Shown in pieces: positions 18,073 through 26,607 of a stretch of DNA of 64,000 bases (the first letter of the stretch is position 1; the number at the start of each line of letters is the position of its first letter). The notes under the pieces are model-generated. The model saw only the letters and a program-made list of their open reading frames with translations. It was not told the DNA's origin and did no database searches. The stretch is taken from positions 992,001-1,056,000 of the forward strand of contig NZ_BNEL01000003.1 of NCBI RefSeq assembly GCF_018327685.1, given 5' to 3'. The DNA comes from Streptomyces sp. TS71-3. Its GTDB lineage: Bacteria > Actinomycetota > Actinomycetes > Streptomycetales > Streptomycetaceae. A program made the translations under genes and the position numbers.

Positions 18073-18561
18073 GTCGTCGTGCTGCTCCTCGGCCAGGTGG
18101 ATCACGCACACGGTGACCGCGATCATGAGCGCCGGGTCCGCGTCTTCGCGCACGATCTCCACGCCGTACGTCTCGCGGACGTGGAGCCAGTGGCGGGAGA
18201 TGTGGGCGACCATGTTGTCGTCGTGGTCGATGACGAACTCGCGGTCCAGGATCTTGCCGCTGACGTCCAGTTCGGAACCGTCCGTCAGCTCCACGCGGTA
18301 GTGGTTGCGCAGCAGCGAGAGGTGCTTGCGCCGTACCGTGGCGAGCTTGCCGTTCCCGTCCTCGATGACCATCGTGTCGCGCAGCGAGAACATCTTCTTC
18401 TTGATGACGATCAGTACGTTGCCCTGCCGGTCCTTCAGCTCGAAGGTGTCCCGCAGGCGCAGTGCCTTGCCGTCGACGAGGAAGACCTTGGAGCCGTGCT
18501 CGTCCTCGATCCAGTAGTCCTCGCCGATCCCGAAGATCCGGTCCCGCACCTGGAATTTCAT
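18070..18561 (-). CDS. LURP-one-related beta-barrel protein
   Basis: 163 residues. The start ATG overlaps the upstream regulator stop (ATGA). The sequence alternates short strands and turns (DYWIEDEHGSKVFLVDGKAL, DTFELKDRQGNVLIVIKKKMFS, DTMVIEDGNGKLATVRRK), the pattern of the LURP-one/scramblase-like fold. The C-terminal helix MIAVTVCVIHLAEEQHDD matches family members. These proteins are linked to membranes in eukaryotes; the bacterial role is unknown. Coupling to a GlxA-type regulator is noted. Confidence 0.8.
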   Translation of the reverse strand: MKFQVRDRIFGIGEDYWIEDEHGSKVFLVDGKALRLRDTFELKDRQGNVLIVIKKKMFSLRDTMVIEDGNGKLATVRRKHLSLLRNHYRVELTDGSELDVSGKILDREFVIDHDDNMVAHISRHWLHVRETYGVEIVREDADPALMIAVTVCVIHLAEEQHDD

Positions 18562-19637
18562 ACCGTTACCCGTTCCCCTGCCGCCTGTCCGAAACGCCGG
18601 CGGTATGCCGACGGGCTGAGCCCCGTCTCCCTGCGCAGCCGCTCCCTCAGATTGGCCGCGGTGCCCAGGCCGCTCAGCCGGGCCACGGTATCGAGCCGGT
18701 CCTCGCCGCGCTCGATGAGGCGGCAGGCGTAGCGGACGCGCTCGCCGGTCAGCCAGGCCAGCGGGGTGGTGCCGAGCTGGGCGCGGAAGCGGCGGTGCAG
18801 GGTGGCGGTGCTCACGGCGGCGCGCTCGGCGAGGCCCGCCACGGTCAGCGGGTCCCCGATGCGCTCCTGGGCCCACGCCAGCAGCGGGGCGAGGGACTCG
18901 TCGGCGATCTGTGGCATCGGCCGCTCCACGAACTGCCGCTGGCCGCCGTCCCGGTGCGCGGCGAACACCAGCCGCCTGCTGACCGCGTTCGCGATCTCGG
19001 CGCCGTGGTCCCGGCGCACCAGGTGCAGCCCGAGGTCGAGCGCGGAGGCGCTGCCGGACGCGGTGAGGATGTCGCCGTCGTCGACGAAGAGGACGTCCGG
19101 TTCGAGACGCACCCGCGGGAAACGGGCGCGGAACGAGTCCGCCCACATCCAGTGGCACGCGGCCCTGCGCCCGTCCAGCAGGCCCGCCTCGGCGAGCGTG
19201 AACGCGCCGCTGCAGAACCCGACCAGCCGCGCCCCGCGGGCGCCCGCGCGGCGGATCGCGGCCAGCACCTCGGGGGTGCGGGGGGTGTCGGTGTCCGGGC
19301 GGTTCGGCACGATCACGGTGTCCGCGTCCTCGGTGGCCTCCAGGCCCGCGACGCCGGTGAGCGCGAAGAAGCCGTCCCGCATCCGGACGGTGGGCTCGGT
19401 CGCGCAGAGCCGGAAGTCGTACAGCGGCCGGCCCAGCTCCGGCCTGCGCAGGCCGAAGACCTCCGTGGCGCAGCCCAGCTCGAAGGGGTTGGAGTTGTCG
19501 TCGACGAGCACGACGACGCGGTGCGGGGTGCCGGGGGTGGCGGGGGTGCCGGGGGCGGTTGCGGTGGCTCCGGCGGTGCCGCGGGCTTCCGTCCCCGGGT
19601 CCGTGCCGGCACCTGCGTGCGAGAAATCTTGCGGCAT
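18558..19637 (-). CDS. GlxA-family AraC-type regulator (DJ-1/PfpI domain plus HTH)
   Basis: 359 residues. After a Thr/Pro-rich leader, residues about 40-215 form a DJ-1/PfpI-like domain (VVVLVDDNSNPFELGCATEVFG, LVGFCSGAFTLAEAGLL with the nucleophile-elbow Cys). Residues about 255-355 form the AraC helix-turn-helix pair (VAGLAERAAVSTATLHRRFRAQLG, ACRLIERGEDRLDTVARLSGLG). The overlap with the LURP-one gene suggests co-expression. It is divergent from a cupin gene only 52 bp away, and an inverted repeat covers its own start codon. Confidence 0.88.
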   Translation of the reverse strand: MPQDFSHAGAGTDPGTEARGTAGATATAPGTPATPGTPHRVVVLVDDNSNPFELGCATEVFGLRRPELGRPLYDFRLCATEPTVRMRDGFFALTGVAGLEATEDADTVIVPNRPDTDTPRTPEVLAAIRRAGARGARLVGFCSGAFTLAEAGLLDGRRAACHWMWADSFRARFPRVRLEPDVLFVDDGDILTASGSASALDLGLHLVRRDHGAEIANAVSRRLVFAAHRDGGQRQFVERPMPQIADESLAPLLAWAQERIGDPLTVAGLAERAAVSTATLHRRFRAQLGTTPLAWLTGERVRYACRLIERGEDRLDTVARLSGLGTAANLRERLRRETGLSPSAYRRRFGQAAGERVTV

Positions 19638-19648
19638 ATGCGATTTCT
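19622..19648. promoter_or_regulatory. Inverted repeat between the GlxA regulator and the cupin gene
   Basis: AGAAATC (19622-19628) and GATTTCT (19642-19648) are perfect 7-bp arms around a 13-bp core, centred on the regulator's own start codon. The 52-bp gap to the cupin gene means one site can control both genes. Confidence 0.5.
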
Positions 19649-19689
19649 AGCACTCGCAGGGCGGGGAGGCCACGGCGGACGATCGCTGC

Positions 19690-20154
19690 ATGACCACCGA
19701 ATCCGGCCGGCCGGCCGCCGCGCAGGCCCCCGCCCCCGCCGCGCAGGCCCCCGCCCCCTCCTCCCTCCCCGTCCTGCTCTCCACCGCGCTGACCACGTTC
19801 GACGACCTCTGGAGCCCGCGGATCGTCACCCGCGTCAACGACTACGACGTCCGGATCGCCAAGGTCGAGGGCGAGCACGTGTGGCACGTGCACGACTCCA
19901 CCGACGAGTTCTTCCTGGTCCTGGACGGCGAGCTGGCCATCGCCCTGCGCGAGGAGTCCGGCGAGCGCACGGTCACCCTCCCCAAGGGCGCCGTGTTCAC
20001 CGTCCCGCGCGGCACCGAGCACAAGCCCCTCGCGCCCGGCGGCGCCTCGATCCTGCTGCTGGAGCCCACCGGCACCTCGACGGTCGGCGACCGCCACGAC
20101 CCCGTTCCCGCCCATGTGGACGCCACCACGGGCCACGCCCTGGACGAGCGCTAG
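19690..20154 (+). CDS. Cupin-domain protein
   Basis: 154 residues. After an Ala/Pro-rich leader with a repeated AQAPAPA, the single cupin domain has the first metal motif WHVHDSTDEFFLVLDG and the second motif GAVFTVPRGTEHKPLAP, with the His/His/Glu/His ligands in place. It is a small metal-binding beta-barrel; members include dioxygenases, isomerases and sensors. Being divergent from a GlxA-type regulator suggests that the regulator controls it. Confidence 0.87.
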   Translation: MTTESGRPAAAQAPAPAAQAPAPSSLPVLLSTALTTFDDLWSPRIVTRVNDYDVRIAKVEGEHVWHVHDSTDEFFLVLDGELAIALREESGERTVTLPKGAVFTVPRGTEHKPLAPGGASILLLEPTGTSTVGDRHDPVPAHVDATTGHALDER

Positions 20155-20156
20155 CA

Positions 20157-20242
20157 CCCGTCGACCCGTCCACCAGTCCCCCCGTCCACCAGTCCCCCCG
20201 TCCACCCGTCCACCCGTCCACCCGTCCGCCCGTCCGCCCGTC
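20157..20242. repeat. Octamer minisatellite (CCCGTCCA and variants)
   Basis: Directly after the cupin stop codon come about ten contiguous 8-bp units, mostly CCCGTCCA or CCCGTCCG, with two 16-bp units containing CCAGTCCC at the start. It could be slippage-prone and differ in length between strains. Confidence 0.85.
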
Positions 20243-20342
20243 CGCAGCGGAGGGCCGTGGGGGGGCGTGGACATACGTTCTCTCCATCACCCAATGGGGT
20301 AATCCGACAATTTCGTCCCGTCTGTGCCGTCATGCTCTGAGA

Positions 20343-20367
20343 GGGTGCGCGGCGCACTGGCGCACCC
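20343..20367 (+). promoter_or_regulatory. Hairpin in the leader of the polyprenyl synthase operon
   Basis: GGGTGCGC and GCGCACCC form a perfect 8-bp stem around a 9-nt loop, ending 24 nt before the first ATG of the operon. It could be a leader structure affecting translation, or part of an operator. Upstream (20280-20335) the sequence is lower in GC and probably carries the promoter. Confidence 0.4.
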
Positions 20368-20391
20368 GCCGGAAAGAGACGATTCCTGGGC

Positions 20392-20688
20392 ATGGGTGGG
20401 TGGGGCATGACGCATGCGACCGATGGAGACCGGGGCCTCGACGAGCGGGTGGTGCTGGTGGCCGCGGGCCTCGCCGATCTGGCCGTGAGCACGGCCGGCT
20501 CGGCGGTGGGCACCCTGCGCGGGCTGCTGCGCCGCTCGGACACGGCCGACCTGGCACGCGACGCCGAGCTGGACCTTCAGGCGCGGGGCCGCCTCGCGCT
20601 GGACCGCTGCGGGAGCCGGCCGCCCGCCCACCTGGAGGTGCTCGCCCGGCACAAGCTGCGCCAGGCCGGCGACGGCGCCGATGACTGA
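20392..20688 (+). CDS. Small helical protein leading the polyprenyl synthase operon
   Basis: 98 residues from ATG 20392; ATG 20407 (MTHATDGDRG) is an alternative start. The body is one or two long helices (ERVVLVAAGLADLAVSTAGSA and TADLARDAELDLQARGRLALD). The first is hydrophobic enough to contact membrane, but no signal peptide is clear. Its last 8 bases overlap the next gene's start, so it is translated with the synthase. I do not recognise the family. A scaffold or substrate-handling partner for the isoprenoid enzymes is conceivable, but that is inference from position. Confidence 0.7.
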   Translation: MGGWGMTHATDGDRGLDERVVLVAAGLADLAVSTAGSAVGTLRGLLRRSDTADLARDAELDLQARGRLALDRCGSRPPAHLEVLARHKLRQAGDGADD

Positions 20689-21856
20689 CCGGGCGGCCCC
20701 GGGGCTCGACCGCCCGGACCCGTCACGCGACCACCGCGAAACCACAGAACCCACACCCGCCCCCGCCCCCTGGCATCCGGCCCCCGACCGCCCGGACCCC
20801 GCCGACCCCGGCCACTGGAGTACCGCCGTCTTCCGAGCCCGCATCGACGCCGTCCTGCGGGACTTCCTGGGCGGCGAGGCGGACCGGCTCGCCGCCGTCG
20901 ACGACGACCTCGCACCCGTGGCCGAGCGGCTGCGGGGCGCCGCGGGCCACGGCAAGCGGCTGCGGTCGGCCTTCTGCTACTGGGGCTGGCGGGCGGCCGG
21001 GCAACCCGACAACGACGCCCTCGTGCGCGCCGCGGCCGCCATGGAACTCGTGCACGCCGCGGCGATCGTCCACGACGACCTCATCGACGACAGCCCGCTG
21101 CGGCACGGGCAGCCCACCGTCCACCTCGCCTTCGAGAAGGACCTGCACGGACGCCCCCGGGCCCGCGCCGCCGCCAGGTCCCTGGCGATGCTGGTCGGCG
21201 ACCACCTGATGGCGCTCGCCGGCCACCTCTTCGCCACGAGCGGCCTGCCCGCCGCCTACCTCGCGCGGGCCCGGGGCCTGTGGGGCGACCTCGCCCGCGA
21301 CCTGATCGCCGGCGAGTGCCTGGAGATCCTGCGCACCGGCGGCCGCCCGGACACCGAGGCGTCCTTGCAGGTCATCCGCTACAAGACCGCCAAGTACACC
21401 GTCGAGCAACCGCTCCTCATGGGCGCCCTGCTCGGCGGCGCCGGGCCCACCCTGCGGGAGTGCCTGTCCGCCTACGGACTGCCCCTGGGCGAGGCCTTCC
21501 AGCTCCGGGACGACCTGCTCGGACTGTTCGGCGACCCCGAGCGGACGGGCAAGGCCGGACTGGACGACCTGTCCGCCCAGCGGCCCACCGCCCTGCTCGC
21601 CGAGACCTGGAAGGCCGCCGACGCCGCACAGCGCGAAGAACTCGGCCGGCTGCTCGGGCGGAGCGACCTGGAGGAGGCCCACCTGCACCGGGTGCGCTAC
21701 CTGATGCTCCGGCTGAAGGCGCCGGAACGGATCGAGCACATGATCCGCACCCGCGTGGAAGAGGCCACGCGCGCGTTGGACGACGCCGACGTCCCCGCCC
21801 CGGCCCGGCGGACCCTGGCCGACCTCGCCCTCCGTGCCACCGCCCGCAGCAACTGA
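20681..21856 (+). CDS. Polyprenyl diphosphate synthase
   Basis: 391 residues. After a Pro/Asp-rich extension of about 45 residues, the isoprenyl synthase fold shows GKRLR (91-95), the first Asp-rich motif DDLID (132-136) and the second at QLRDDLLGLFGD (274-285). The residues four and five before the first motif are Ala, consistent with a product of C20 or longer rather than C15. The usual DLREGKRT after the second motif is replaced by DLSAQRPT, losing a conserved lysine. It overlaps the small gene upstream and is followed 39 bp later by an MpaB-like oxygenase, suggesting that the product is that enzyme's substrate. Confidence 0.9.
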   Translation: MTDRAAPGLDRPDPSRDHRETTEPTPAPAPWHPAPDRPDPADPGHWSTAVFRARIDAVLRDFLGGEADRLAAVDDDLAPVAERLRGAAGHGKRLRSAFCYWGWRAAGQPDNDALVRAAAAMELVHAAAIVHDDLIDDSPLRHGQPTVHLAFEKDLHGRPRARAAARSLAMLVGDHLMALAGHLFATSGLPAAYLARARGLWGDLARDLIAGECLEILRTGGRPDTEASLQVIRYKTAKYTVEQPLLMGALLGGAGPTLRECLSAYGLPLGEAFQLRDDLLGLFGDPERTGKAGLDDLSAQRPTALLAETWKAADAAQREELGRLLGRSDLEEAHLHRVRYLMLRLKAPERIEHMIRTRVEEATRALDDADVPAPARRTLADLALRATARSN

Positions 21857-21895
21857 CCGCGGCCCGACCGCGGCAACCGACCGCAGGAGACGACG

Positions 21896-23056
21896 ATGCC
21901 CCGCACCGACACACCGACGGACGACCTGCGGCTGAGCGGCGACGAGCTGGCCGACTCCGTGGTCGCCACCCTCTTCGAACGCGGCGAGGTCGGCACGTTC
22001 AACACGCTCATGCGCTTCGTGACCACCGCGGGGCAGGACCTCCCCGAGGGCCTGCCCGACGTGGCGCGCGAGTACCTCCGCGAGACCAGCGCGCCGCCGT
22101 CCTGGGTGGACTGGAACGAGATGGAGAAGGCCCGGCTGTTCTTCATCGACAACAACGTGCACATCTCCACCGCGCTGTCGTTCGCGTCGATGCCCGCCTG
22201 CTACCTCGTCCCGCACGTGGCGAAGCTGCTGTCGGCGACCCACGGCCTCAGCTACCCCTCCAGGCGGATGGCGGAGACCGGCCAGTTCACCGTCCACCTC
22301 ATGCAGCCCGACGCGTTCGAGGCCGGCGGACGCTTCCTGCCGGCCGCGCAGAAGGTGCGCCTGCTGCACGCCGCCATCCGCCACCACCTGATCCGGGAGG
22401 ACCGCTGGGACACCGCGGCGCTCGGCGTGCCGATCTGCCAGGAGGACATGATCGGCGGGCAGATGTTCTTCTCGATCCTCGTCCTGGACAGCCTGCACCG
22501 CCTCGGCATCCACATGACCACCGACGGGGCGGAGTCCTACTACTACGCCTGGCGCGTGGTCGGCGCCATCCTCGGCGTCGACCAGGACGCCGTCCCCAGG
22601 ACGCTCGCGGAGGCCCGCCGCTTCCTCGACCTCTACATGCTCCGCCACATGGGCCCCTCCGACGAGGGCGCGCACCTCACCAGGCAGCTCATCGACCTGT
22701 ACGAGGAGGTGGTCCCCGGCACCTTCTTCGACCCGATCGTCTCCGCCCTGATCCGCCACCTCGTCGGCGACACCTGCGCGGACTGGCTCCGCGTCCCCCG
22801 CACCGCCTGGGACACGGTGGTCAAGGCCGTCCCCCGCCTGCTCGGCGTCCTGGAGACGATCGAGGACCGCTCCCCGCTGGGCGCCTGGGCCCTGGACCGC
22901 CTCGGCCACCTCACCACGGTCCTCGAACTGTCCTCCCTCACCCGCGGCCGCGTCATGCACTACGCCATCCCGGAGGAGCTGAAGAAGGACTACGGCGTGA
23001 CGAACACGGTCCCGCGCGCGAAGCGCTGGACGCCGCCGCCGGCGACGGTTTCCTGA
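21896..23056 (+). CDS. MpaB/rubber-oxygenase-family protein (DUF2236)
   Basis: 386 residues with AGGAG before the ATG. It is all-helical with the family pattern SRRMAETGQF (R124, T128) and KVRLLHAAIR (H158). The spacing of Arg and Thr to His equals, as I recall, the heme-pocket Arg, Thr and axial His of latex-clearing protein Lcp. MpaB of mycophenolate biosynthesis, in the same superfamily, cleaves a farnesyl chain oxidatively; Lcp cleaves polyisoprene. Heme b binding and double-bond cleavage are therefore plausible here. There is no Tat or Sec signal, unlike secreted Lcp, so it acts inside the cell. Transcribed with a polyprenyl synthase. Confidence 0.82.
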   Translation: MPRTDTPTDDLRLSGDELADSVVATLFERGEVGTFNTLMRFVTTAGQDLPEGLPDVAREYLRETSAPPSWVDWNEMEKARLFFIDNNVHISTALSFASMPACYLVPHVAKLLSATHGLSYPSRRMAETGQFTVHLMQPDAFEAGGRFLPAAQKVRLLHAAIRHHLIREDRWDTAALGVPICQEDMIGGQMFFSILVLDSLHRLGIHMTTDGAESYYYAWRVVGAILGVDQDAVPRTLAEARRFLDLYMLRHMGPSDEGAHLTRQLIDLYEEVVPGTFFDPIVSALIRHLVGDTCADWLRVPRTAWDTVVKAVPRLLGVLETIEDRSPLGAWALDRLGHLTTVLELSSLTRGRVMHYAIPEELKKDYGVTNTVPRAKRWTPPPATVS

Positions 23057-23117
23057 GAGGTACCGGGTGCGGCCCCCGGGGCACCCGTGCGGCCATCCGC
23101 CGCCCGAGGGGCACCCG

Positions 23118-23147
23118 GGGCACCCGGGCCGTCCGGGGCGGGTGCCC
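23118..23147 (+). terminator. Terminator after the MpaB-like gene
   Basis: A 9-bp stem (GGGCACCCG and CGGGTGCCC) with a 12-nt loop lies 62 nt after the stop codon, in a GC-rich stretch with weaker nested dyads. It separates the isoprenoid operon from the next gene. Confidence 0.65.
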
Positions 23148-23200
23148 AGGGAGGGTGACCCCGGGGAATACTCACCCACAGTGATGGCATTCTGGGACGT

Positions 23201-25057
23201 ATGAGCCACTCCGCCTCCGCCGCAGACTCCGCCTCCGCCCCCGCCCCCCGGCGCGCCCGCGTGAGGGCGCCCGAGCTGGTCGGCAAGGGCGGCTGGCTGA
23301 ACACCGGTGGCAAGGAGCTGAAGCTGGCCGACTTCCGAGGCCGCACATTGATCTTGGATTTTTGGACGTTCTGCTGCATCAACTGCCTCCACGTCCTCGA
23401 CGAGCTCCGCGAGCTGGAGGAGAAGCACCGGGACACGGTGGTGATCGTCGGCGTGCACTCGCCGAAGTTCGTGCACGAGGCGGAGCACCAGGCCGTGGTG
23501 GACGCGGTGGAGCGGTACGGCGTGGAGCACCCGGTGCTCGACGATCCGGAGCTCGCGACCTGGAAGCAGTACGCCGTGCGGGCCTGGCCGACGCTCGTCG
23601 TGATCGACCCCGAGGGCTACGTGGTCGCCCAGCACGCCGGCGAGGGGCACGCGCACGCCATCGAGCGGCTGGTGGCGGAGCTGGAGGAGGAGCACGACGC
23701 CAAGGGGACGCTGCGGCGTGGCGACGGCCCCTATGTGGCGCCCGAGCCGGTGGCCACGCACCTCCGGTTCCCCGGCAAGGCGCTGCTGCTGCCGTCGGGG
23801 AATCTGCTGGTGTCGGACACCACCCGGCACCAGCTCGTGGAGCTCGCCGACGACGGTGAGAGCGTGGTGCGGCGGATCGGCACCGGCCACCGCGGGTTCC
23901 TGGACGGGTCGGCCGACGGTGCGGCCTTCAACGAGCCGCAGGGCCTCGCGCTGCTCGACGAGGGGACGGTCGTCGTCGCCGACACCGTGAACCACGCGCT
24001 GCGCGCGCTCGACCTCGCCACCGGCGCCGTCACCACCCTCGCGGGCACCGGCCGGCAGTGGATGCAGGGCTCGCCCACCAGCGGCCCGGCGTGCGAGGTG
24101 GCGCTCTCCTCGCCGTGGGACGTCGCCCTCTTCGGCGGCAAGGTGTGGATCGCCATGGCCGGCGTCCACCAGCTCTGGACGTACGACCCGGCGGACCGCA
24201 CCGTGGCCGTCGCCGCCGGCACCACGAACGAGGGGCTCGTCGACGGGCCCGGCGCCGAGGCCTGGTTCGCGCAGCCCTCGGGGCTCGCGGCGGCCGGGGA
24301 CCGGCTCTGGCTGGCCGACTCCGAGACCTCGGCGCTGCGCTGGGTGGACGCGGACGGCGCCGTGCACACCGCCGTCGGCACCGGCCTCTTCGACTTCGGG
24401 CACCGCGACGGGCCCGCCGGCCAGGCGCTGTTCCAGCACCCGCTGGGCGTGACCGCCCTGCCGGACGGCTCGGTCGCCGTCAGCGACACGTACAACCACG
24501 CCCTGCGCCGCTACGACCCGGCCACCGGCGAGGTCAGCACGCTCGCGACCGACCTGCGGGAGCCCTCCGGCGCCGTGGTCGACGGCGGCGAGATCGTGGT
24601 CGTGGAGTCGGCCCGGCACCGGCTGACCCGGCTCCGGCTGCCGGACGAGGCCGTGCGCGTCACGCCCGTCGCGCACCGCACGCAGCGCGCCGCGACCGAG
24701 GTGGCCCCCGGCGACCTCCGGCTCGACGTGATCTTCCAGGCCCCGGCGGGCCAGAAGCTGGACGAGCGCTACGGCCCGGCGACCCGCCTGCTGGTCTCCT
24801 CGACCCCGCCCGAGCTGCTGCTCGACGGCGCCGGTCCGGACAGCGCCCTGACCCGGGCCCTCGCGCTCAACCCCGACGTCACGGAAGGCGTCCTGCACAT
24901 CTCCGCGATGGCCGCGTCCTGCGACGACTCCCCCGACACGGAGTTCCCCGCCTGCCATGTCCACCAGCAGGACTGGGGCGTTCCGGTGCGCGTGGCCGCG
25001 GGTGGAGCGGCGCGGTTGCCGCTGGTGCTGGCGGGCATGGACGCGGTCGAGGAGTAG
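23201..25057 (+). CDS. NHL-repeat thioredoxin-family protein (NHLRC2-like)
   Basis: 618 residues. An N-terminal thioredoxin-like domain (about 22-165) has the motif WTFCCINCLH, with a CINC redox pair preceded by an extra Cys, then VIVGVHSPKF and the cis-Pro region WPTLVVIDPEG. From about 180 to 510 are NHL beta-propeller repeats (LVSDTTRHQLVELA, VVADTVNHALRALD, VSDTYNHALRRYD). A C-terminal domain (about 520-618) completes the NHLRC2-like layout. There is no signal peptide, so it is cytoplasmic. CATTCT 7 nt before the ATG and no Shine-Dalgarno sequence leave a leaderless start possible. Substrate unknown. Confidence 0.9.
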   Translation: MSHSASAADSASAPAPRRARVRAPELVGKGGWLNTGGKELKLADFRGRTLILDFWTFCCINCLHVLDELRELEEKHRDTVVIVGVHSPKFVHEAEHQAVVDAVERYGVEHPVLDDPELATWKQYAVRAWPTLVVIDPEGYVVAQHAGEGHAHAIERLVAELEEEHDAKGTLRRGDGPYVAPEPVATHLRFPGKALLLPSGNLLVSDTTRHQLVELADDGESVVRRIGTGHRGFLDGSADGAAFNEPQGLALLDEGTVVVADTVNHALRALDLATGAVTTLAGTGRQWMQGSPTSGPACEVALSSPWDVALFGGKVWIAMAGVHQLWTYDPADRTVAVAAGTTNEGLVDGPGAEAWFAQPSGLAAAGDRLWLADSETSALRWVDADGAVHTAVGTGLFDFGHRDGPAGQALFQHPLGVTALPDGSVAVSDTYNHALRRYDPATGEVSTLATDLREPSGAVVDGGEIVVVESARHRLTRLRLPDEAVRVTPVAHRTQRAATEVAPGDLRLDVIFQAPAGQKLDERYGPATRLLVSSTPPELLLDGAGPDSALTRALALNPDVTEGVLHISAMAASCDDSPDTEFPACHVHQQDWGVPVRVAAGGAARLPLVLAGMDAVEE

Positions 25058-25151
25058 GGCGGCCCGGAGGTCACCGGTTCGGGTGTGATGGGCGACATCA
25101 AGTGATGCAGTAACGACTTTGCGTTATGTCCGTTCCGTTAGGCTGGTCCAC

Positions 25152-25505
25152 ATGAGTGAGCTTGACGAGTACCGTCGCATCATGGACCAGCGCATGAGCG
25201 CTCTTGAGGCGGAGATGGACGCCCTGCGCGACCAGATCACCACGACGCGGGCGGTCGTCGCCATAAACGATCGCGATGTCTCGGAGTTCAAGACCGAGTT
25301 GAGGGCTCACCGGCAGACTCTCCAGGCGCTGCGGGAGACGCAGTTGGAGCAGCAGCAGGAGATCGGCCGACTCCGGACCGAGGTCCGTTCGGGCTTCGCC
25401 GAAGTACAGTCCACCTTCGCGACGGTCCTCGCCGGCATCCAGGCCATCGCCACCCGCCTTCCCGAGGACCCCGCCGCGGGCCCGGAGGTCCCGGCCGCCA
25501 GGTAA
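25152..25505 (+). CDS. Coiled-coil protein of unknown function
   Basis: 117 residues from ATG 25152; a GTG/ATG further upstream lacks support. Residues about 5-95 have heptad-like spacing and high charge (ISALEAEMDALRD-like SALEAEMDALRD, TLQALRETQLEQQQEIGRLRTEV), predicting a coiled coil, ending in a Pro/Ala tail. TAGGCT 7 nt before the ATG and no Shine-Dalgarno sequence suggest a leaderless transcript. The GC content of its codons is lower than that of its neighbours. No family recognised. Confidence 0.75.
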   Translation: MSELDEYRRIMDQRMSALEAEMDALRDQITTTRAVVAINDRDVSEFKTELRAHRQTLQALRETQLEQQQEIGRLRTEVRSGFAEVQSTFATVLAGIQAIATRLPEDPAAGPEVPAAR

Positions 25506-25656
25506 CCCCCTCGGCGGGCCGGTGCGGCTGCCCATGCCCCGTGGGCCGTATCCCGTGGGGCACACGGCCCATGGCCCGTTGGCCATGGCCCGGTCCTATC
25601 GTTTATTGGCCCGCCCGGCGTTGCGAGGCTCCCCGGCCAGGACACAGGGTGGTGCC

Positions 25657-26607
25657 ATGAGCGAGAACACGATGCGTGCCCTCAGCCAGGACGCCTATGG
25701 AGGGCCCGAGGTCCTCAGGGAGGTCCGGGTTCCGCGGCCCGAGCCCATCGGCAACGAGATCCTCGTCGCCGTCCACGCCGCCGGGCTGAACCCCACCGAC
25801 TTCAAACACCGCGCTCGCGAGATGGAACTGGGCGAGCCGCCGCTCACGCTGGGCTGGGACGTGTCGGGTGTCGTCGAGGCGGTCGGCGTCGGCGTCACGC
25901 TGCACCAGCCGGGCGACGAGGTGTTCGGGATGCTGCCCTACCCGAAGGGGCACGGCGCGCACGCCGAGTACGTGACCGCTCCCGCCCGCGCCTTCGTGCC
26001 CAAGCCGGCCGCGCTCGGCCATGTGGAGGCCGCCGCGCTCCCCCTGGCGGCGATGACCGCGTGGCAGGCGCTCGTCGATGTGGCTGACGTGCGGCCGGGG
26101 CAGCGGGTGCTGGTGCAGGCGGCGGCCGGCGGGGTGGGACACCTCGCCGTGCAGATCGCCAAGGCGCGCGGTGCGTACGTCATCGGCACGGCGTCCGCCG
26201 CCAAGCACGACCTGGTACGGAGCCTGGGCGCCGACGAGGTCGTCGACTACCGCACCCAGGACTTCGTCGCCGAGGCCCGCGAGATGGACATGGTCCTCGA
26301 CCCGCTTCTCGGCCAGGACCGGCTGCGTTCGCTCGAAACCCTGAAGCCGGGCGGCCTGCTGGTGTCGATCCTGCCCGCCCAGTTCGCCGAGGTTCAGGCG
26401 CGGGCGGCCGAGTTGGGGGTGCGGGCGACCGCCCTTCTGGTCGAGTACGACCACGCGGGCATGGAGGGCGTCGCCGCGCTGGTGGAGTCCGGGCAGTTGC
26501 GCCCGCATGTCTCCGGTACGTATCCGCTGGCCGAGGCCGCGAAGGCGCACGCGGAGGGTGAGACGGGCCGGGTCACGGGGAAGCTGGTGCTGACGGTGCG
26601 CTCCTGA
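25657..26607 (+). CDS. NADP-dependent medium-chain oxidoreductase (quinone reductase type)
   Basis: 316 residues from ATG 25657, preceded by AGGGTGG. The N-terminal GroES-like domain (LVAVHAAGLNPTDFKHR, LGWDVSGVVEAVG) lacks zinc-ligand cysteines, and the Rossmann domain has the AAAGGVGHLAVQIAKARGA nucleotide motif. This fits the zinc-independent quinone oxidoreductase/enoyl reductase branch of the medium-chain dehydrogenases. It would reduce quinones or enones with NADPH. It stands alone on the plus strand. Confidence 0.9.
   Translation: MSENTMRALSQDAYGGPEVLREVRVPRPEPIGNEILVAVHAAGLNPTDFKHRAREMELGEPPLTLGWDVSGVVEAVGVGVTLHQPGDEVFGMLPYPKGHGAHAEYVTAPARAFVPKPAALGHVEAAALPLAAMTAWQALVDVADVRPGQRVLVQAAAGGVGHLAVQIAKARGAYVIGTASAAKHDLVRSLGADEVVDYRTQDFVAEAREMDMVLDPLLGQDRLRSLETLKPGGLLVSILPAQFAEVQARAAELGVRATALLVEYDHAGMEGVAALVESGQLRPHVSGTYPLAEAAKAHAEGETGRVTGKLVLTVRS

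Follow-up and report, generated by a model that had tools for sequence, protein, structure and literature searches.

The unit and its conservation

The window, a 64,000-nt stretch of the 9.79 Mb genome of Streptomyces sp. TS71-3 (contig NZ_BNEL01000003.1, positions 992,001 to 1,056,000; G000:C3:992001-1056000 in our numbering), contains three tightly packed genes on the plus strand, designated P1, P2, and P3 (Table 1). The open reading frames are those of a preliminary description made from the sequence alone; P1 and P2 overlap by 8 nt, and a gap of 39 nt separates P2 from the start of P3. The enzyme families named in that description were recovered by profile search, with P2 scoring 142.8 bits against PF00348 (cut-off 27) and P3 scoring 65.6 bits against PF09995, MPAB_Lcp_cat (cut-off 23). 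We consider the trio, with a probability of roughly 45%, to be a self-contained isoprenoid cassette of the "build, then oxidise" type.

Table 1. Features of the locus (window coordinates)
Feature	Position	Strand	Description
Tandem repeat	20155-20243		11 copies of the 8-bp unit CACCCGTC (86% matches)
Promoter-like element CAATGGGGTAATC	20292-20304	+	Ends 87 nt 5' of the first ATG of P1
Inverted repeat	20343-20367		GGGTGCGC N9 GCGCACCC
P1	20392-20688	+	98 aa; no Pfam or NCBIfam family
P2	20681-21856	+	391 aa; trans-prenyl diphosphate synthase, PF00348
P2 N-terminal extension	20681-20810	+	About 40 extra Pro-rich residues
P3	21896-23056	+	386 aa; MpaB/Lcp-type oxygenase, PF09995 (former DUF2236)
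3' neighbour	23201-25057		Thioredoxin-like domain, then NHL repeats (Pfam)

The genus sample comprised the window genome and 120 others, 121 in total. Orthologs of P3 were present in 37 of them, 31 with 78–100% identity and six with 63–65%. This count omits the remaining matches, which were an 82-residue fragment (G051) and Lcp-like relatives with identities of 30% or less; the match in G104 covers residues 47–385. P1 was found in the same 37 genomes, close to P3 in 36 and on a separate contig in G112. The trio thus occurs in about three in ten sampled Streptomyces genomes, though its proteins fit no characterised NCBIfam type or family.

For comparison of gene neighbourhoods, 36 stretches of 14.5–20 kb were used along with 24 kb of the window. 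The trio was complete in 35 of the 37 stretches. Clustering grouped P2 from 35 loci, P3 from 35, and, at the 40% identity limit of its cluster, P1 from 26; P1 in loci outside its cluster was identified separately. No fourth conserved gene occurred in more than 6 of the 37 loci, and therefore the conserved unit consists of three genes with varying flanks. No cyclase was conserved in the unit, the flanking genes of other loci being unannotated, and no terpene cyclase was found among the eight Pfam-scanned genes of the window (18558–26607), in agreement with the preliminary description.

In a first set of loci, P1, P2, and P3 lay on one strand in 60 of 62 cases. The exceptions were L091, a stretch too short to show P1, which is present in the longer L108, and L097, in which P2 is broken and P1 survives only as a trace. 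The second set of 84 loci combined the 80 best of the 287 found in named genomes with two from plasmids and two found via the promoter; 83 had all three genes in order, and L151 has P3 alone. Both sets together contain 139 distinct P3 sequences, five of which are common to both; L037 and L068 are the same place, as are L144 and L202. The genome survey that the preliminary description had named as a test of its proposal therefore revealed a conserved unit. The start codon of P2 was located 8 or 11 nt before the end of P1 in 57 of the 60 first-set loci and in 81 of the 83 second-set loci; since the candidate start closest to −8 was taken in each case, true starts may differ. This recurrent overlap suggests that P1 and P2 are probably translationally coupled. 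The divergence of P1 and P2 was also correlated (r 0.90).

It could be supposed that P2 is a general source of prenyl donors and P3 serves the catabolism of terpenoids from outside, their adjacency being no more than a regulatory convenience. Lcp enzymes are known chiefly as rubber degraders (according to PMC6311187), and three further PF00348 genes are present in the window genome, so P2 is not the sole synthase there. Nevertheless, we regard separate roles as improbable: the genes co-occur at many unrelated places, their divergence is correlated, and no fourth gene is conserved, hence no gene for uptake or breakdown. Co-occurrence, the lack of a fourth gene, and joint inheritance all weigh against mere neighbourhood.

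In a class-wide sample of 394 genomes, orthologs of P3 (at least 70% identity) were detected in 20, of which 12 belong to the same genus and eight to two other families (seven to f17 and one to f4). A profile search with P1 returned 21 of the 394 genomes, namely those 20 and G422, in which P1 is followed by a fragment of P2 and P3 is absent. Other genera of the same family also hold the trio, and the nearest relatives of the window-strain P3 come from Streptomyces and Kitasatospora. P3 was found on five Streptomyces plasmid records, and the trio was complete in the three examined (L183, L190, and L191). In a quick tree of P2 and P3 (60 rows; supported only by the Shimodaira–Hasegawa-like approximate likelihood ratio test, SH-aLRT), genus g1 did not form one group, and well-supported branches forced at least four changes. 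Six g1 rows fell outside a supported group (98%) in which the other g1 rows were joined by the f4 row and four rows of f17. Remnants were represented by the P3 tail of L051, the P1-like piece of L052, and L245. Because of the tree, the changing flanks, and these remnants, we consider the trio to be mobile and lost as a unit. P2 was split over reading frames in L044 and in L097/L109, by sequencing error or decay, and the pieces were compared as they stand. A lone P1-like gene was observed at L052:9758-10039, with the same flanking genes as around the whole trio in L048–L050; elsewhere in the genome of L052 (G078), a complete trio belonging to the other clade is present.

The encoded proteins

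The first Asp motif of P2 is DDLID and the second RDDLLG; D132, D133, D136, D277, and D278 were invariant in 22 aligned rows. The same rows preserved A126-A127-A128, at positions −6, −5, and −4 of the first Asp motif, so the small residues pointed out in the preliminary description are a constant feature. As a general rule, a small residue at −5 permits products of C20 or longer. The closest solved structures were a geranylgeranyl pyrophosphate synthase (3lk5, E 1.4e-46) and a (2E,6E)-farnesyl diphosphate synthase (8f8f, E 3.3e-42), which we take to come from Corynebacterium and Mycobacterium, respectively. Both resemble P2 over most of its length and keep DDxxD and RDDxxG; position −5 is Ala in P2 vs. 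Cys in 3lk5 and Trp in 8f8f. Two other synthases of the window genome have Phe at this position, and the third escaped the pattern match. Judging from these residues, the product of P2 is probably C20 or longer. None of the NCBIfam synthase types (GFPPS, GGPP, FPP, and others) was assigned: all 16 matches listed were under their cut-offs, the best being 201.5 bits vs. 600 (NF042416).

The window P2 has 391 aa vs. about 350 in most orthologs, the difference being the Pro-rich N-terminus. Because of this extension and a score of 194.6 bits against NF041169, a polyprenyl transferase that is cargo of family 2 encapsulins, we also considered such a role for P2. It was rejected since the cut-off (450) was missed, the extension is missing from most orthologs, and the encapsulin genes lie elsewhere: two SrpI-like genes are on contig C1, and the trio is on C3. 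One SrpI-like gene directly adjoins another PF00348 synthase (G000:C1:1751855-1753761; L193 and L197).

P3 matched no NCBIfam family. Its predicted fold is of the Lcp type, and the rubber oxygenase LcpK30 is the closest solved structure by both fold and sequence (E 2.6e-30). R124, T128, and H158 of P3 align with R164, T168, and H198 of Lcp, and they never varied, either in an alignment of 36 rows or among 146 trio rows, of which 139 are distinct; the roles of the Arg, the Thr, and the proximal His in Lcp are described in PMC6311187. From these residues we infer that P3 is a b-type haem protein. By eye, no export leader was visible in the 28 trio rows of the alignment, as the preliminary description had stated for the P3 of the window, and P3 would be cytosolic.

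This bears on whether P3 is simply an ordinary secreted latex-clearing protein, as its closest structure might suggest. Such an identity is very improbable. The Lcp-type rows L083–L086 start with an RR-containing leader, unlike the trio rows, and Lcp-like relatives with identities of 44% or less had no adjoining P2 in 11 loci (flanks of about 1.5 kb); nine Lcp-like stretches of about 18–20 kb (L099–L107, overlapping these loci) contained neither P2 nor P1. Tandem pairs of Lcp-like genes, with 27–32% identity to P3, were observed in L084, L087, and L103.

P1 matched no family of Pfam or NCBIfam and no PHROGs entry, and no Pfam family matched more than one of 50 members of the P1 family at E 5. 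The preliminary description considered the protein to have no known relatives. This view could not be maintained: 553 relatives were found at E 0.001 in a search made without gene context. Where the context was inspected (38 + 21 places), P1 was part of the cassette or its remnant, except in G112. The third codon positions of P1 differed from those of the window more strongly (0.49) than the first (0.30) or the second (0.32). According to the relatives and this codon pattern, P1 is genuinely a gene; translation could plausibly also start at an ATG at 20407, giving 93 aa. In 50 aligned rows, G26, R65, G66, R72, E82, and A85 were invariant. The model predicts three helices (residues 14–46, 51–74, and 79–94), the first of which is hydrophobic (best 19-residue Kyte–Doolittle mean 1.7), in agreement with the label "putative membrane protein" given to SCO0566 of Streptomyces coelicolor. 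The gene overlap and the correlated divergence make P1 a likely partner of P2. A likeness to phasin-like helical proteins is conceivable.

Many of the best 120 relatives of P1 carry the label "polyprenyl synthetase," as do the P1 genes of the plasmid records NZ_CP109497.1 and NZ_CP108162.1. We rejected this assignment, since P1 has 98 aa and none of the motifs of P2; the misleading name can inflate synthase counts.

The upstream region and surroundings

The promoter-like element upstream of P1 in the window matches CAAAGGGGTATTC at all but two positions; CAAAGGGGTATTC is the GGGTAT region of SCO0566p, a promoter of the sigma-B type. With up to two mismatches, CAAAGGGGTATTC was present in 11 of 117 distinct upstream sequences, compared with a fraction of 0.0004 among 7550 control windows. 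Another element, TCACTCGATCGTGA, was found with the same tolerance in 71 of the 117 sequences, 105 nt (median) before P1, and in none of the 7550 control stretches (170 nt, same loci). An exact 17-mer, TCACTCGATCGTGAGTT, had five copies in the 121 genomes, each directly upstream of the trio; examples of the element are L028:12342-12355, L030:8682-8695, and L053:11969-11982. The 14-mer TCACTCGATCGTGA with one mismatch allowed occurred at 25 places in seven genomes, four of them exact and before the trio and 21 not; at that stringency the element is therefore not cassette-specific. It marks the trio and may also belong to a wider regulon. The window trio and its branch lack TCACTCGATCGTGA and have a GGGGTA element at about the same place.

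The SCO0566p promoter is printed in PMC8346170, and its 21-nt core, CTCAAAGGGGTATTCGGGATC, was found in loci related to the window's branch (5 of 197 loci, two of these from one genome). It occurred three times in 392 genomes of the genus, each time directly upstream of P1. The operon is listed there as SCO0566 (putative membrane protein), SCO0565 (polyprenyl synthase), and SCO0564 and SCO0563 (both hypothetical). In the two-plasmid system described in PMC8346170, SCO0566p depended on several sigma-B homologues (sigma-B, G, K, L, and M); according to the same paper, the promoter was not identified in vivo in strain M145 under osmotic stress.

Promoter recognition of this kind would suit a different function, in which the substrate of P3 is a different cellular isoprenoid (a menaquinone side chain, a carotenoid, or an undecaprenyl-type carrier) whose prenyl chain is supplied or replaced by P2, as lipid remodelling that is perhaps stress-controlled. 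The position of the core, upstream of the trio in all three genomes that have it, is consistent with this, and so is the long chain thought to thread a channel past the haem in LcpK30 (PMC5522427). However, the failure to see SCO0566p in vivo in M145 stands against it, and the patchy presence of the trio (37/121) and its spread between families agree better with an accessory trait than with the maintenance of core lipids. We therefore find lipid remodelling rather unlikely.

The inverted repeat between the promoter-like element and P1 is a possible operator in the window strain. A search for sigma-70 promoters found none; one terminator-like site was detected, on the minus strand, vs. a mean of 0.2 in shuffles. 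The 5' neighbours of the trio encode a cupin protein and a divergent AraC/DJ-1 regulator (Pfam), and the tandem repeat of Table 1 lies between the cupin gene and the trio. Neither these genes nor the thioredoxin/NHL gene on the 3' side were kept with the trio in other loci.

Proposed function and comparison with known systems

In the proposed cassette, P2 would condense isopentenyl diphosphate with an allylic primer to an all-trans prenyl diphosphate, probably of C20 or longer. P3, as a cytosolic b-type haem oxygenase with the Lcp fold, would add O2 across a double bond of this chain or of its alcohol, and the product would be a shortened prenyl aldehyde and/or a methyl ketone. P1 would most likely be a small helical partner of P2 that handles and presents the hydrophobic chain or tethers P2 at the membrane.

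Several observations weigh against this function. The preliminary description called the oxygenase Lcp-like on the basis of R124, T128, and H158, which the alignment bears out, but two distal-side residues of Lcp are replaced. Glu148, the proposed catalytic base, corresponds to V108 (the trio rows, 146 in all, have V, I, L, M, or G). At the place of the distal ligand Lys167, P3 has E127 (E in 138 rows, N in 6, and A in 2), so that the trio itself varies there. Replacement of Glu148 in Lcp by Ala, Gln, or His leaves about 20, 5, or 2% of activity, respectively (reported in PMC5522427). No phosphatase or aldehyde-handling gene was conserved with the trio in the 37 loci, and one P3 ortholog (84%; L151:3001-4155) has neither P1 nor P2 in the 3 kb upstream. 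Linkage cannot prove that P3 uses the product of P2. As for P1, the predicted fold is weak (predicted template modelling score, pTM, 0.36), contact with P2 is putative, and correlated divergence is also expected from common descent alone. Since both Lys167 and Glu148 are lost, P3 need not cleave isoprenoid double bonds, although such cleavage is its likeliest reaction.

The same replacements could mean that P3 is a non-cleaving haem protein, one that hydroxylates or epoxidises alkenes, acts as a peroxidase, or senses redox state to regulate P2, all the more as four leader-bearing Lcp-type rows in the alignment retain both residues. This explanation is less probable still than lipid remodelling. 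In a set of 495 Lcps, conservation of Lys167 reaches only 59%, and the variants Lys167Ala and Glu148Ala keep about 20% of activity (PMC5522427); the Arg, Thr, and His are invariant in P3; and the fold includes t-anethole oxygenase, whose name denotes an oxygenase acting on a small alkene.

A bolder version of the cassette, which we put forward as doubtful, is a horizontally spread three-gene pathway to apo-isoprenoids (linear prenyl aldehydes or methyl ketones with no cyclase or meroterpenoid head), with P1 founding a family of chain-handling subunits for trans-prenyl synthases and the product being a widespread unrecognised volatile or signal of Streptomyces. If the cassette functions as proposed, Lcp-type oxygenases, studied for rubber, would also act intracellularly on home-made isoprenoids. 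The trio would then be a small, easily expressed target with a product findable by ordinary metabolite comparison.

LcpK30 (PDB 5o1l, 5o1m) is the closest solved structure to P3, yet the identity in the alignment is 24%. In contrast to LcpK30, P3 has no visible leader, carries E127 and V108 at the two distal positions, and is encoded behind a prenyl synthase. The t-anethole oxygenase of Stenotrophomonas maltophilia (PDB 8s1j) has a P3-like fold with 12% identity and, judging by its name, another substrate. MpaB of the mycophenolic acid pathway of Penicillium, named in the Pfam family of P3, cleaves a double bond of a farnesyl chain (PMC12724181). It is fungal, bound to the endoplasmic reticulum according to the Pfam name, and acts on a farnesylated phthalide, whereas the trio encodes its own prenyl synthase. 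Alkene-cleaving bacterial haem oxygenases were described by Purwani et al., as quoted in PMC12724181, and an MpaB-family gene near lcp genes is reported for a rubber-degrading Streptomyces (PMC9108482). The "MpaB" of daptide biosynthesis was rejected as a relative; it is a name clash with a DUF-RRE fusion of a peptide pathway (PMC10036551).

In the literature search, which left most subscription journals outside, only PMC8346170 was found for SCO0563–SCO0566, and no paper contained both "oxygenase MpaB" and "polyprenyl synthetase"; beyond the operon line of PMC8346170, neither the upstream element nor the P1 family nor a portable three-gene unit of this kind was found described. Considering the operon listing and the promoter core, which in the sampled genomes stands only before the trio, SCO0566-SCO0565-SCO0564 are probably P1–P3 of the same cassette. 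The enzyme families of P2 and P3 are known; the portable trio, the P1 family, and the upstream element are new to the literature found.
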